Source: an uncultured bacterium
Lineage (GTDB): Bacteria > Verrucomicrobiota > Lentisphaeria > Victivallales > UBA1829
Assembly (NCBI GenBank): GCA_949297765.1
Contig: CASFTV010000016.1
Span: forward strand, 1 to 64,000
Length of the DNA: 64,000 nt
Direction of reading: 5' to 3'
Shown here: in pieces, positions 54,988 through 63,470 of the stretch
Numbering within the stretch: the stretch's first letter is position 1
Layout of the letters: the number at the start of each line of letters is the position of its first letter
Program-made: the position numbers and the translations under genes
The notes under the pieces: generated by a model
What the model was told of the DNA's origin: nothing
The model's database searches: none
What the model saw: only the letters and a program-made list of their open reading frames with translations

Positions 54988-55953
54988 ATGATTCAGCTGA
55001 GCAATACATCCATCATGATTTTCCGGGCGGACGGCACAACGGTTCCGTTCGATGTGGAGGAGATCCAGACCCGGATCATCCGGGCCTGCATCGCCGCCGG
55101 AGAAACGGAGTCGTGGATCGCGGGCGATCTTTCCCTCTCCGTTGAATTTGCTCTGCTCTCGACCCGGAGCCGCACCATCAAAGAGAGCGATCTGGACAGC
55201 ATGATCGTGCGGGCGCTGGAGGATTCCGGTTATCCGCATGTGGCCGCCGACTTCAAGCGCAGTGCCTCGACCGGCGCGCTTTCCGATATCCCGGTCAACG
55301 AGAAAACCGTCCGCGCCGCTCTTGCTCCTGTTCTCTCCCTTCCCGAGGAGAAACTGGAGCAGATCGCCTCCAAAGTCATGCAGGCTCTGCTGGGAATCGG
55401 ATTTGAGGCCTGTTCTCCCCGGCTGATGGTTGAACTGGCCCGCCATTACCGTGACACGGATCCGGAATCGACACCGGTCCTGCATCTCCGTCCGCGTCCG
55501 CTGAAGCCCGGGGACGATGTCATGCTGCTGCGGCCCTCCGATTTTCATACGCTCGCTTCGGTGAACCTGAAGGATCTTCTGACAGGAGAAAGCCTCCGCG
55601 TACACGGCGTCAGCCGCCTGTTCGCCGCTCTGAAGATCGACATTTCCCTGACCCGCTTCGCCGATGCGATGGAACTTTCCAAACCGGTTTCGGAGCTTGC
55701 GCTGCAGTCCACCTGGGGACGGCTCGTGCTGGCGGTGGACGAGATCTGCGAGAAGGCGGAACGCTTCTGCCGCGGGGAAAAAGATCCTCCCGCTCTGCCC
55801 CTTCCGCTCTGTCTCACCTTCCGCGATGCGGAAAAATTCGCAGTCGCCTATATGGATTGTCCGAAAGCCGTCACGGAAGGCTGCATTCACGGCTTCGTGA
55901 CCGATTTCACCGCCTGCCTGAAACAGAAGCCGTTCAAAATCAACGTCGATTGA
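54988..55953 (+). CDS. Orphan ATP-cone domain protein
   Basis: A 321-aa protein whose residues ~8-95 resemble an ATP cone (IMIFRADGTTVPFDVEEIQTRIIRAC, then ESDLDSMIVRALEDSGYPHVAADF), the nucleotide-sensing domain of NrdR and ribonucleotide reductases. No zinc ribbon and no reductase domain follow. Residues ~110-200 may be a degenerate second cone-like or helical region (NEKTVRAALAPVLSLPEEKLEQIASKVMQALL), and the remainder is unrecognised. It is 14 bases after the ClC gene in the nrdR operon. A nucleotide-responsive role is inferred only. Confidence 0.7.
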   Translation: MIQLSNTSIMIFRADGTTVPFDVEEIQTRIIRACIAAGETESWIAGDLSLSVEFALLSTRSRTIKESDLDSMIVRALEDSGYPHVAADFKRSASTGALSDIPVNEKTVRAALAPVLSLPEEKLEQIASKVMQALLGIGFEACSPRLMVELARHYRDTDPESTPVLHLRPRPLKPGDDVMLLRPSDFHTLASVNLKDLLTGESLRVHGVSRLFAALKIDISLTRFADAMELSKPVSELALQSTWGRLVLAVDEICEKAERFCRGEKDPPALPLPLCLTFRDAEKFAVAYMDCPKAVTEGCIHGFVTDFTACLKQKPFKINVD

Positions 55954-58522: not shown

Positions 58523-59257
58523 ATGAAAGCCAGAGTTCTTCTTCCGGTCTGCGCCGTTCTGACGGTGTTCTGCTGTTCCGTCTCCGCGGGGCCGCATCAT
58601 CCGCACCGCAGCGACGGACTGCTTCTGGCCGCTCAGATTACCGGTCTTGTAAGAAGTGTGCTGTTTCCGCCGCTGGTGGTTCTCCCTCCGGTTGCCGCAG
58701 TGGTCTATACGCAGCCGCAGGCATCAACTGTGATCGTCCAGCCGGACGAGAACGGAATATACGGTTCAACGATCGTGGATCATCCGGTGATCCAGACCAC
58801 GGTTCCGACCGTGATCTATCAGGAACGGTCCCCCGTGTTCTATTATGATTCCTCCTGTCTGCTTCTTCCGCCGGTGTTTTTCCGTCCGCCTCCGCCGCCT
58901 CCTCCGAGACCGCGTCCTCCGAGGCCGCGTCCTCCGGTCATCATCGAACGTCCGCGTCCGCCGCGTCCACAGCCTCCGCCGAAGCCGCGCCCGAAACCGA
59001 ACCGTCCGCGTCCGCAGGAGCGTCCGGACCGTCCGCCGCTGAAGTATCCGGTGACGACGCCTCCGGGCCAGTATCGTCCCGATCCGAATCCGGGCCGCTA
59101 TCAGCGCCTGCCCGCTCCGGCGCAGAAGTACAAGGTGGAGGTGCCGACCTATGCGCCCGCTCCGCCGAAGGGACAGTGGCAGCCGCTTCCCTCTCCGTCG
59201 CGGAATTATCAGTCTGCGCCGCGCCCGGCCCGTCCGGACGGCGGTCCGCGCCGCTGA
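58523..59257 (+). CDS. Secreted proline/arginine-rich protein, paralogue of the previous gene
   Basis: A 244-aa protein. Signal peptide (~1-22) is followed by GPHHPHRSDGLLLAAQITGLVRSVLFPPLVVLPP, which matches the previous protein's His-rich start and LAA-x-I-x2-LV-x-SV block. A ~60-residue Val/Ile/Tyr-rich part follows. Residues ~120-190 are a highly biased Pro/Arg repeat (PPPPPPP then PRPPRPRPP-type units), and the tail is Pro/Gln/Tyr-rich. It is probably an extended, cell-wall- or envelope-spanning protein. The Pro/Arg repeat is codon-repetitive and could slip. Confidence 0.75.
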   Translation: MKARVLLPVCAVLTVFCCSVSAGPHHPHRSDGLLLAAQITGLVRSVLFPPLVVLPPVAAVVYTQPQASTVIVQPDENGIYGSTIVDHPVIQTTVPTVIYQERSPVFYYDSSCLLLPPVFFRPPPPPPPRPRPPRPRPPVIIERPRPPRPQPPPKPRPKPNRPRPQERPDRPPLKYPVTTPPGQYRPDPNPGRYQRLPAPAQKYKVEVPTYAPAPPKGQWQPLPSPSRNYQSAPRPARPDGGPRR

Positions 59258-59332: not shown

Positions 59333-59361
59333 TTGTATTCCCCGGTCCGGCATGATACATT
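59333..59361 (+). promoter_or_regulatory. Promoter of the LCAT-like/fusion operon
   Basis: -35 TTGTAT (59333-59338), 17-bp spacer, -10 TACATT (59356-59361), about 80 bases before the start codon. Confidence 0.6.
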
Positions 59362-59446
59362 ACTGCCGCCGGGGAGGGCGCGGAACCGGACTTTTCCACG
59401 CATCTTTTCCGAACCATGTCACAACGAACCGAAACGCGGAGGATGT

Positions 59447-60985
59447 ATGACAACAGATGAATTGAAACACAAAGCGCTTGCGTATACCCTGCCTCTGGTG
59501 CCGGCGCTCCTGCTCCTGAACGCCTGTGCGTCGACGGAGAGCGGTTCCTATCAGGATCCGAAGCCTCACGGGAAAACCGTTTACACCGAAGTGATGAAGA
59601 AGGCCTTCCAGTATGAGGGGCCTGCGCGCAATCCGGTGATCGTGATCCACGGTCTGCTCGGATCCCAGCTTGTCGATTCCCGGGACGGATCGAATATCTG
59701 GGGTCAGTTTTCTCTGACGGAGATGCTGGCGGGCAACAAGTTTCCGCGTCTGGCGCATCCGATGAAGGAGAAGCAGCCGCTTTCCAAACTTGTTTCCGAG
59801 GTCCGTCCGTCGGGTCTGCTCAGCAAATCCCATATCCGGGTCCTCGGGTTCTCGTTCGATTACGAGGGCTACGAGATTCTTGTGGATGCTCTTTCCAAGG
59901 GGGGATATGTGCCGGATACCGCTCCGCTTCCGGAAGGAAAACACTTCTATTCCCAGTTCGTTTTTTATTATGACTGGCGCCGCGACATTTCGGAGAACGC
60001 CGTCCGCCTGAAGGAGTTTCTCCTGGAGAAGAAGGCCTACCTTGAGGGACGGTACAAGGAGCTGTACGGAGAGAATGACTACAATGTTCATTTTGACCTT
60101 GTCGCGCACAGTATGGGAGGCCTTCTGGCCCGGTACTTCATGCGCTATGGAGGAACGCCGCTTCCGGAGCGCGAACTGGAACTGCCCCGGCTGACCTGGG
60201 AGGGCGCAAAGTATGTGGATCGCCTTGTGATTATCGCGACGCCGAATGCGGGATATCCCGACACGCTCGTGGAGCTGACGGAAGGCCTGCGCCTCGCTCC
60301 CGCGGCGCCCGTGTATCCGAAGGCGGTGATCGGCACATTCCCCTCCTACTATCAGATGCTCCCGAACGAGGAGACCGGCAGCGTGGTGGAAGCGGGGACG
60401 GGAAAACCGGTCAACTGTTTCAGTCTGGAAACGTGGGTGAAGTATCGCTGGGGACTCGCGGATCCCGACGGGGATGAATGGTTCCGGCTCCTGCTTCCCG
60501 AAGTGAAAACACCGGCGGAGCGGCAGAAGATTGTGCGGGAACATCTGGACAAATGTCTCTCCCGGGCAAGACAGTTCAAGCGGGCGATGCAGATTTCCGC
60601 GGTCACGCCGGAAAATGTATCGGTCTATCTGTTTGCCGGCGACTCCATCCTGACGAACTCTGTTCTTTCGGTCAATCCGAAGACCGGCGCGGTGACGGTT
60701 TCAAAACGGGATGCCGGAGATGGAAAGATTCCCGTGATGAGCGCCCGTCTGGATCTGCGGACCGCCGCAGATGTTCTCCCGTTCCTGAAATCCCCGGTTT
60801 CGTGGACCGGAATTTATCATCTTCCCGGCGGACACATGGGCATTATGAACAGCGGCGTGTTTGAGAGCAATCTGCTGTTCCTTCTTCTTTCGGAGCCGAC
60901 TTCCACACAGAAGGCCAATATGAAGCTGTATGAGGAGCTCCTCCAGAAAGACGCGTCCGCGAATGCCGATGGAACGAAGCGCTGA
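59447..60985 (+). CDS. LCAT-like lipase/acyltransferase lipoprotein
   Basis: A 512-aa protein with a lipoprotein signal (lipobox LLNAC, Cys27) and an LCAT/PDAT-type alpha/beta hydrolase fold. It has oxyanion block VIVIHGLLGSQLVD with SNIWGQ, YDWRRDISENA, nucleophile elbow VAHSMGGLLARY (Ser222), and the Asp/His region near the end (GDGKIPVMSARL and HLPGGHMGIM). The family transfers or releases fatty acyl groups of phospholipids or sterols. ATG 59447 follows GGAGG. It overlaps the start of the fusion gene, so they are co-translated. Likely envelope-lipid remodelling. Confidence 0.85.
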   Translation: MTTDELKHKALAYTLPLVPALLLLNACASTESGSYQDPKPHGKTVYTEVMKKAFQYEGPARNPVIVIHGLLGSQLVDSRDGSNIWGQFSLTEMLAGNKFPRLAHPMKEKQPLSKLVSEVRPSGLLSKSHIRVLGFSFDYEGYEILVDALSKGGYVPDTAPLPEGKHFYSQFVFYYDWRRDISENAVRLKEFLLEKKAYLEGRYKELYGENDYNVHFDLVAHSMGGLLARYFMRYGGTPLPERELELPRLTWEGAKYVDRLVIIATPNAGYPDTLVELTEGLRLAPAAPVYPKAVIGTFPSYYQMLPNEETGSVVEAGTGKPVNCFSLETWVKYRWGLADPDGDEWFRLLLPEVKTPAERQKIVREHLDKCLSRARQFKRAMQISAVTPENVSVYLFAGDSILTNSVLSVNPKTGAVTVSKRDAGDGKIPVMSARLDLRTAADVLPFLKSPVSWTGIYHLPGGHMGIMNSGVFESNLLFLLLSEPTSTQKANMKLYEELLQKDASANADGTKR

Positions 60986-63470
60986 TCCGCATCCCGAATA
61001 CAACCATTTTCGACAGGGGGAGGAGTTCCTCGCCTACCGGGATTCCGGCGGGACGGGGAATGTCCTTCTGTTCCTGCACGGATTCGCCTCGTTTTCCTGG
61101 AGCTGGGAGGAGCTGATCCGTTTTCTGCCGGAGGGGTTCCGCTTCGTGCGGGTCGATCTTTCCGGATTCGGATTTTCGCTCGGCAATTCGGAGCATCCGC
61201 TTTCCATTTACGATCAGGCGGCGCTGGTTGAACGGCTGATCGTGCATCTGGACCTGAGGCGCATTACGCTGATCGGACACGGATTCGGCGGCGAGGTCTG
61301 CATTCTGCTGACCCGCATGCCGGAGATCCTGTCGCGCCTGGACCGTTTATGTCTTGCAGCCTGCCGGGCGCCCGGCGAGGAAATTCCCGATTATATTTCC
61401 AAGATCGCCTCTCTTTCGCTGACGGGCGGCGGACGTGTTCTGGAGTTTGCCCGTTCCCGTTTTCTCGCCCGCGTGCTGCTGGAATATGTGCATGGGAGAA
61501 AGGCCGCTCTCCGGGAGGAGACTCTGGAGGCGTATTCCGCAATGCTGCGGCATCCCGGCCGTCTGGATTCCATCATCCGCGCCGCGGGGGAGTATCTGCG
61601 GAATCCCGGGGATGACCTGCTGTACGAATCGCTTTCCCGTTTCGAACTGCCGACTCTGCTGCTGTTCGGGGAGAAGGATCCGGTCATCACCCGGGAAGGA
61701 CGGAAACATCTTTCCTCTCTCCTGCGCAATTCGCATGAGATCCTGCTGCCCGGATGCGGGCACCTCCTCCAGGAGGAAGCGCCGGAGACTGTGGGGGAAC
61801 TGCTGAGTGCATTTATCCGCCGTCAGGTTCCCGAATTGCGGATTCCTTCGCCCCCGGAGGGCGGAAAGGAGATGGAGGAGACCGGCGGGGCGATTCCGCG
61901 CCTTTCCCGTCTGTTCGACCGCTGGAGTCCCGGAGCGCTTCTGGTGATTCTGATTTTGAAACTGCTTCAGTTCTGCCGTCTTCTCGGTGTCCGGGCGGAG
62001 GCGCACGGCTGGCGGAAACTGACCTCCGTGTTTCTCCGCGGGGAGTATTCCAAATTCATGCTTGCCAGTTTCCGGCTGGACTACTGCGGGGGATCTGTTC
62101 CGGCATCGTATCCGGAGGCACGCCGGACTCTGCTGCAGAGACTTTACGGATTTCAGCTGCTGCATCCGGATCTGCACTGGTCGGTGGAGCCGGGGCTTTT
62201 TTCGTTCGGCCGGCGCAGAATCCCGTTCTGTGATATTGTGGAGGCGCATGTGGATGCCGGCGGTGCGCTGCTCGGTCTGCGTCCGCTGTTTGACAGGCGC
62301 CAGCCGCCTCCGGGAGTTTCGGAGGAGCAGGCGTCGGAAGCGCTGGAGGCGATTCTCCGGATCTGCAACCAGTACCGCGAAGCGGATTCCCGCACCCGTC
62401 CCGGACTGATCGCGGGTGCGCTCCGTCGCTGGGTGTCGCGGAAACGGAGATTTCATCTTCTGACCCGGCGGAACATTCAGCGGTATGTGGAGCGGGTCAT
62501 GACCGCGTCGTTTATTTTTCTGGAAGTTCTTCCGGAAGGGGAGGAGGGGGGCGCGATGCGCTACCGGACGCCGGATCTGCGGATTTTCCGCCATCCGGGA
62601 TGGGGAATGACCTGCGTGACCGCGCGGCTCACCGCGGACTTCCGGGAGGCCGACCTCTGGTTCCAGTTTCATCACATCACCGCGGACGGAGCGCCGATGC
62701 AGGAGCTTCTGGCGGATCTGAAACGGCTCTGGGGATCGGCGGGGCCGGTGGTCTATCCGGCGTTTCCGGGGCTGGTGTCCCGTCCCGAAACCATGGACTG
62801 CGGAGACGGCGTTTACCGGGCCAGAGTCTATATTGATTTCACGTCTCTTCTTCGCCTGCGGCGGTATTTGAACGATCATTATTCGGCCGCGATGAACGGA
62901 GCCGCCTCGCTTGCGGGGCTGCTGATGTGGGGGCTGGCGGATCATCCGTTCTTCCGGGAAAAGAAGATGCTTCTGCCGATCGACGCGGGGATCTCTCCGC
63001 AGGGGGAACGCGAACTCGGACTGCTGTTCATCCGTCCCGGAAGATTCCTCTCCGGCACGGAACCCCTGCGCGGATATCTCCGCTTCCAGAAAGAGATGAA
63101 CCGGCGCATGAGAAGCGCCCGGAACGGTTCGGGGGAGAGTCATGAATTTCTCTCCCTCTGCACAATGCTCCATCCGTTTTTCTACCATGCGGCGCGGTTT
63201 CTTGCGCCTTCCTCGCTCGACGAGATCGTCGGGACGATGGGGATTTCCATCATCCGGGACGCGGAAATGTTTATCAGCCCGCTGACGGATTTTCAGAAGA
63301 ACGGTTTTCTCACGCTCGGTTCTGTCAAGATCCCGACCGGAGACGGGAAATGCGCCGGATCTCTCTGCATCTGCGGTTCCCGGACACAGATCCGGATCTA
63401 TCTTCAGGCAATCAAGCATCTGGTGCGCCATTTTCCGGAAACCCTCGGATTGAAAGAGGACTGCTTCTGA
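60963..63470 (+). CDS. Fusion of inactive alpha/beta hydrolase domain and HHxxxDG acyltransferase-like domain
   Basis: An 835-aa protein. Residues ~1-275 are an alpha/beta hydrolase (LFLHGFASFSWSWEELI, VDLSGFGFS, GEKDPVIT, GCGHLLQEE), but the nucleophile elbow reads GHGFGG: Gly107 (GGA, 61281) replaces the catalytic Ser. A hydrophobic helix follows (~322-342, GALLVILILKLLQFCRLLGV). Residues ~400-835 resemble CAT/condensation-type acyltransferases, with FHHITADG (H570, H571, D575) as active-site motif. There is no signal peptide. The start could also be 60930 or 60969. It overlaps the LCAT-like gene by 23 bases. A role in acyl transfer to an envelope lipid is inferred. Confidence 0.75.
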   Translation: MPMERSADPHPEYNHFRQGEEFLAYRDSGGTGNVLLFLHGFASFSWSWEELIRFLPEGFRFVRVDLSGFGFSLGNSEHPLSIYDQAALVERLIVHLDLRRITLIGHGFGGEVCILLTRMPEILSRLDRLCLAACRAPGEEIPDYISKIASLSLTGGGRVLEFARSRFLARVLLEYVHGRKAALREETLEAYSAMLRHPGRLDSIIRAAGEYLRNPGDDLLYESLSRFELPTLLLFGEKDPVITREGRKHLSSLLRNSHEILLPGCGHLLQEEAPETVGELLSAFIRRQVPELRIPSPPEGGKEMEETGGAIPRLSRLFDRWSPGALLVILILKLLQFCRLLGVRAEAHGWRKLTSVFLRGEYSKFMLASFRLDYCGGSVPASYPEARRTLLQRLYGFQLLHPDLHWSVEPGLFSFGRRRIPFCDIVEAHVDAGGALLGLRPLFDRRQPPPGVSEEQASEALEAILRICNQYREADSRTRPGLIAGALRRWVSRKRRFHLLTRRNIQRYVERVMTASFIFLEVLPEGEEGGAMRYRTPDLRIFRHPGWGMTCVTARLTADFREADLWFQFHHITADGAPMQELLADLKRLWGSAGPVVYPAFPGLVSRPETMDCGDGVYRARVYIDFTSLLRLRRYLNDHYSAAMNGAASLAGLLMWGLADHPFFREKKMLLPIDAGISPQGERELGLLFIRPGRFLSGTEPLRGYLRFQKEMNRRMRSARNGSGESHEFLSLCTMLHPFFYHAARFLAPSSLDEIVGTMGISIIRDAEMFISPLTDFQKNGFLTLGSVKIPTGDGKCAGSLCICGSRTQIRIYLQAIKHLVRHFPETLGLKEDCF

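Follow-up and report, generated by a model that had tools for sequence, protein, structure and literature searches.

What does an alpha/beta hydrolase domain give to the acyltransferase-like domain attached to it once the nucleophile of the hydrolase is gone? This question is raised by a single gene in the window (the whole stretch of 64,000 nucleotides analysed here, from an uncultured bacterium of the order Victivallales), and we addressed it by comparing the gene with its relatives in the order and in the phylum.

Two domains in one reading frame

The features of the gene that the argument rests on are as follows.

60930-63470, + strand: fusion gene, open reading frame of 846 aa counted from the first ATG
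61032..61823, + strand: alpha/beta hydrolase domain, residues about 35-298
61281..61283, + strand: codon GGA of Gly118 at the nucleophile position, elbow GHGFGG within LIGHGFGGEV
61677-61679, + strand: triad acid Asp250
61761-61763, + strand: triad His278
61902..63467, + strand: putative CAT/condensation-like C-terminal domain, residues 325-846, about 520 residues
61929..61979, + strand: hydrophobic segment at the start of the second domain, residues about 334-350
62670..62690, + strand: HHITADG motif (His581, His582, Asp586, Gly587), residues 581-587, with FHHITADG at 62667-62690

Residue numbers follow the 846-aa reading; subtracting 11 gives those of an earlier first-pass annotation, whose Gly107 is our Gly118. 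Two in-frame ATGs, at 60963 (835 aa) and 60969 (833 aa), are more likely starts than the one at 60930, and a start at either would overlap the upstream gene, whose stop is at 60985.

The Pfam Abhydrolase_1 model (PF00561) matches residues 44-285 with an E-value of 9e-21 (75.1 bits against a cut-off of 25.8), a range also matched by further hydrolase models, and the other half of the same open reading frame bears HHITADG. The same architecture occurs in relatives, so that the first-pass description of the gene as a two-domain fusion stands. It had also been remarked that no named family is known to have such an architecture; we likewise found none, nor did a limited search of the open-licence literature turn up any description of the fusion family. 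No signal peptide was recognised in the fusion protein. The hydrophobic segment is possibly a membrane anchor or an in-plane helix, and a 19-residue hydropathy window above 1.6 is present in 62% of 58 relatives, at a median position of 11 in the C-terminal domain.

The nearest solved chain by sequence is 6I8W (PlaF; E-value 4e-16), and ABHD6 monoacylglycerol lipase is also among the nearest. In alignments with solved hydrolases, Gly118 falls on the nucleophile (the Ser of GNSMGG in 6I8W, Asp in the chain of an epoxide hydrolase), and Asp250 and His278 fall on the triad acid and histidine. Gly118/Asp250/His278 correspond in this way to the triad S137/D258/H286 of PlaF (PA2949), a membrane phospholipase A (PMC9132575), which keeps its serine and has no acyltransferase domain. 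The protein possesses the profile match, the acid and the histidine of a serine alpha/beta hydrolase but none of the nucleophiles Ser, Asp or Cys at the elbow, and the earlier claim of a missing nucleophile is borne out.

The serine-less elbow belongs to one clade of the family

A profile search found the C-terminal half in 68 of 137 Victivallales genomes, mostly as the same fusion, and in a protein search of 61 relatives the fusion turned up in many Victivallales families. Among 388 genomes across the phylum, matches to the C-terminal profile were confined to Victivallales (54 genomes), and the plasmid and viral-contig collections contained no relative of this half.

Elbow states were read from one alignment of 60 loci. 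The elbow is Ser in 34 aligned fused members, mostly as GHSMGG, and Gly in 7 genomes of 3 genera (G000-G003 of the genus studied here, G020, G021 and G006). Being conserved over these genera, the Gly elbow is not a chance occurrence, and its presence in 6 related genomes removes the concern, raised in the first-pass annotation, that Gly107 might be confined to this genome. On the other hand, the 34 relatives that combine the same fusion with an elbow Ser contradict the idea that the serine-less state is a property of the family: it is a derived state within one clade and not a defining trait. An apparent additional Gly row (G022) was an alignment artefact, that genome having no hydrolase domain, and the row G003b comes from a fragment of a contig, the Gly elbow being on the other half, G003a. 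In one genome (G070; locus L100, f4g35) the elbow serine was lost independently, giving GHFTGG with Phe at the elbow and with Asp and His kept, and its sister G071 has GHSTGG.

In a tree of the C-terminal domain, the Gly members cluster with the hydrolase-less lineages f1g8 and f4g44 (SH-aLRT 99), and no Ser member falls within this cluster. The gap between the LCAT-like match (see below) and the second domain is 48-81 bp in these two lineages, showing that the hydrolase is truly absent there. Further losses of the hydrolase domain (f1g6, G054 and G130) are located elsewhere on the tree. It is thus the C-terminal domain that stays constant in the family and the hydrolase that varies. The tree is unrooted, and Ser is taken to be the ancestral elbow state from what is seen in the hydrolase superfamily. 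One genome without the fused hydrolase (G054) has a stand-alone hydrolase gene (C62:36557-37336; E-value 1e-23 to the fused domain), which is possibly a split product or a paralogue.

The Gly-type hydrolase domain is still under purifying selection

Between the congeners G001, G002 and G003, the Gly-type hydrolase has a dN/dS of 0.08-0.12, and the value for the second domain is 0.11 (G001/G002); the serine-less domain is still under purifying selection. Neither the Ser nor the Gly set shows any variation at Asp250, His278 or Glu283. Moreover, all Gly members share Glu122, Cys145, Ser176, Tyr186, Arg211 and Tyr222, which are uncommon among Ser members, and position 51, on the oxyanion strand, is Gly in all Ser members and Asp or Glu in 6 of the 7 Gly members, the exception being this genome, which has Gly. 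Together these features speak against simple decay and may reflect a re-used pocket, the Gly set being 7 related sequences, too few to tell function from shared descent.

The same features could also mark a domain that is still enzymatic without the elbow Ser, in which His278 and Asp250 would activate water or an acceptor, or in which Cys145 (located after strand 6), an acidic residue 51 and Glu122/Arg211 would form a new site. Such an enzyme would be in keeping with the persistence of Asp250, His278 and Glu283 after the loss of Ser, and with the clade-specific acidic residue and fixed Cys, Glu, Arg and Tyr residues. However, the genome studied here has Gly at position 51, the candidate residues were placed by sequence and not within the pocket of a structure, and shared descent among 7 sequences yields clade-specific fixations as well, so we regard a still-active hydrolase as unlikely, if worth keeping in mind. 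For a fold that is kept after its activity has gone, neuroligins and NDRG offer precedents, having retained the hydrolase fold after loss of triad residues (PMC7022630); the fusion differs from them in retaining Asp and His and in carrying an acyltransferase-like domain.

The C-terminal domain is probably condensation-like

No family in Pfam, NCBIfam or PHROGs is matched by the C-terminal half. PF03007 (WS/DGAT) matches neither the fusion protein nor 28 aligned relatives, and a profile of the C-terminal alignment retrieved nothing relevant from the PDB sequences. Among 59 genomes no WS/DGAT sequences turned up for a reference profile, and the controls of that search gave no signal either. Within the HHITADG motif, the second His, the Asp and the Gly of H-x-x-x-D-G are present in 59 of 59 aligned rows, implying that the motif did not arise by chance, while the first His varies (H/N/S/Q). 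This variability fits the second His as the catalytic residue usually assigned in condensation domains, which are pseudo-dimeric CAT folds and in which the catalytic role of this His is still debated (PMC11546977).

For comparison by hhalign, a profile of condensation domains was derived from genomes of the phylum; the C-terminal domain aligned with it over 283 co-linear columns with a score of 40.2 (probability 38%). Among the controls, none of 40 column shuffles exceeded 24.1 and none of about 30 unrelated profiles exceeded 23.9, a reversed profile reached 15.6, and condensation against CAT, a pair of known relatives, scored 29.4. Masking HHxxxDG lowered the score to an insignificant 18.3, though the alignment kept the same diagonal, and a CAT profile aligned with the domain solely at the motif (32 columns). 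AlphaFold runs on 833 aa and 522 aa, with 4 sequences, gave pLDDT values of 36.3 and 35.2, too low for the models to be of use.

The likeness to the NRPS condensation/CAT superfamily (PF00668, PF00302; also WS/DGAT and BAHD) consists of HHxxxDG in register and a co-linear profile alignment that continues to the C-terminus. The differences are that none of 29 members has a Pfam match to these families, that the first about 220 residues of the domain are unaligned, and that the fusion partner is a hydrolase. We assign the C-terminal half as CAT/condensation-like with moderate confidence, the fold being supported but not proven; the first-pass assignment to this type holds as far as the profile comparison carries it (40.2 against at most 24.1), and structure forms no part of the support.

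An LCAT-like lipase gene accompanies the fusion gene

Immediately upstream of the fusion gene lies a gene that the earlier analysis had left unused.

59333..60985, + strand: LCAT-like putative lipoprotein gene (PF02450, E-value 4e-7), its stop overlapping the start of the fusion gene

By Pfam, the product is a member of the LCAT/PDAT family (PF02450), which the fusion protein is not. Its HSMGG-type serine and His motifs are intact, and most of its relatives have a lipoprotein-like N-terminus. Members of the LCAT family move acyl chains from phospholipid onto alcohols.

Both genes are present in 64 of the 137 genomes, the fusion family alone in 4, the LCAT-like gene alone in 2 and neither in 67 (68 versus 66 carriers; Fisher p 1.8e-31, uncorrected for phylogeny), and the co-occurrence is also seen inside the variable genera f1g3 and f1g4. 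In 34 genomes the two genes lie next to each other in the same orientation, with the LCAT-like gene upstream in 17 (6 genera) and downstream in 17 (4 genera), and because both orders are seen, the association has evidently survived rearrangement. The LCAT-like gene alone is a widely recurring neighbour of the fusion gene, and the co-occurrence indicates that it is likely to be part of the system.

Several genomes (for example f3g26, f8, f2 and some f4) have two LCAT-like copies, and where one copy adjoins the fusion gene, the other sits elsewhere. Two further genes of the window lie on the same strand. The first, directly 5' of the LCAT-like gene (58523-59257, + strand), encodes a 244-aa putative secreted protein that is proline/arginine-rich and has no Pfam match. 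The second (54988-55953, + strand) encodes a 321-aa protein with an N-terminal ATP-cone (PF03477, E-value 2e-8) and no further Pfam domain; as the ATP-cone is all that was recognised, the product is neither a ribonucleotide reductase nor a known NrdR.

The constant partner bears on the possibility that the C-terminal half, though CAT-like, has an activity other than lipid acyl transfer and makes, for example, amides as condensation domains do, or a small-molecule ester. The best profile match is indeed to amide-forming condensation domains, and a lipid substrate is our own supposition. Yet the recurring neighbours examined included no carrier-protein or NRPS genes, the constant partner is a lipase of the LCAT family, and a hydrophobic segment opens the C-terminal domain, all of which make a non-lipid role improbable in our judgement.

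A proposed role in lipid remodelling

We propose, as a reading whose chances we put slightly below even, that the fusion is a Victivallales-specific lipid acyltransferase, associated with the membrane and working with the LCAT-like lipase. We infer the substrates, the membrane location and what the Gly-type domain does from the features described above. In this scheme, the second His of HHxxxDG (His582) would assist the attack of an alcohol or amine group, carried by a lipid acceptor, on an acyl thioester of CoA or ACP, and the ancestral N-terminal domain would have been a PlaF/ABHD6-like serine lipase that releases or presents this acceptor. The joining of a lipase to an acyltransferase suggests deacylation-reacylation of a membrane lipid, and the ancestral chain may have been a Lands-cycle-like unit of this kind. 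After the change from Ser to Gly in the present clade, no acyl-enzyme would form and the domain may have been retained for binding or positioning of a lipid or acyl chain. An acyl-serine is impossible on the Gly-type protein; the serine enzyme at hand is the LCAT-like partner, and this neighbouring lipoprotein would provide whatever serine lipase or transacylase activity remains. The putative lipoprotein would be located outside the cytoplasm and the fusion lacks a recognised signal peptide, so the two proteins may work one after the other and not jointly.

A more specific form of the proposal, possible but rather doubtful, is a two-gene, order-specific lipid-remodelling system built on a new family of HHxxxDG acyltransferases joined to a lipase, in which the lipase half of one clade would have been rebuilt (Glu122, Arg211, Cys145 and an acidic residue 51) into a lipid-handling domain that forms no acyl-enzyme, the serine chemistry being done by the LCAT-like lipoprotein.

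The hydrolase domain is dispensable in several lineages, because it was lost outright there. That the serine-less domain is a relic heading for deletion, with the C-terminal domain alone being important, would accord with these losses, both in the sister lineages f1g8 and f4g44 of the same clade and independently in f1g6, G054 and G130, but is very improbable given a dN/dS of about 0.1, which indicates constraint as strong as on the second domain, the intact triad Asp and His in all 7 Gly genomes, and a frame kept open across about 260 codons in 3 genera. As a role for the lipid acyltransferase that we favour, acylation of carotenoids or hopanoids was judged unlikely, squalene/phytoene synthase being absent above the curated cut-off from every Victivallales genome.

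The second region of the phytyl ester synthases PES1/PES2 and of the cyanobacterial Slr2103 provides an acyl-acceptor pocket of the LPLAT/DGAT2 type and is not HHxxxDG/CAT-like. In contrast, the second half of the fusion has no acyltransferase Pfam match and no LPLAT/DGAT-type domain. These enzymes likewise carry an alpha/beta hydrolase followed by an acyltransferase-type region in one chain, and their products are phytyl esters and triacylglycerol (PMC12526585).

With the fusion, an order that has received little study gains an undescribed acyltransferase-like family, one that Pfam, NCBIfam and PHROGs do not contain. Its near-perfect pairing with the LCAT-like gene is a genetic handle on lipid remodelling in Victivallales. 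Within this one family there is a natural series consisting of an active-looking lipase domain, a serine-less yet selected domain and a deleted domain, which lets one ask what a "dead" hydrolase gives to the transferase attached to it.
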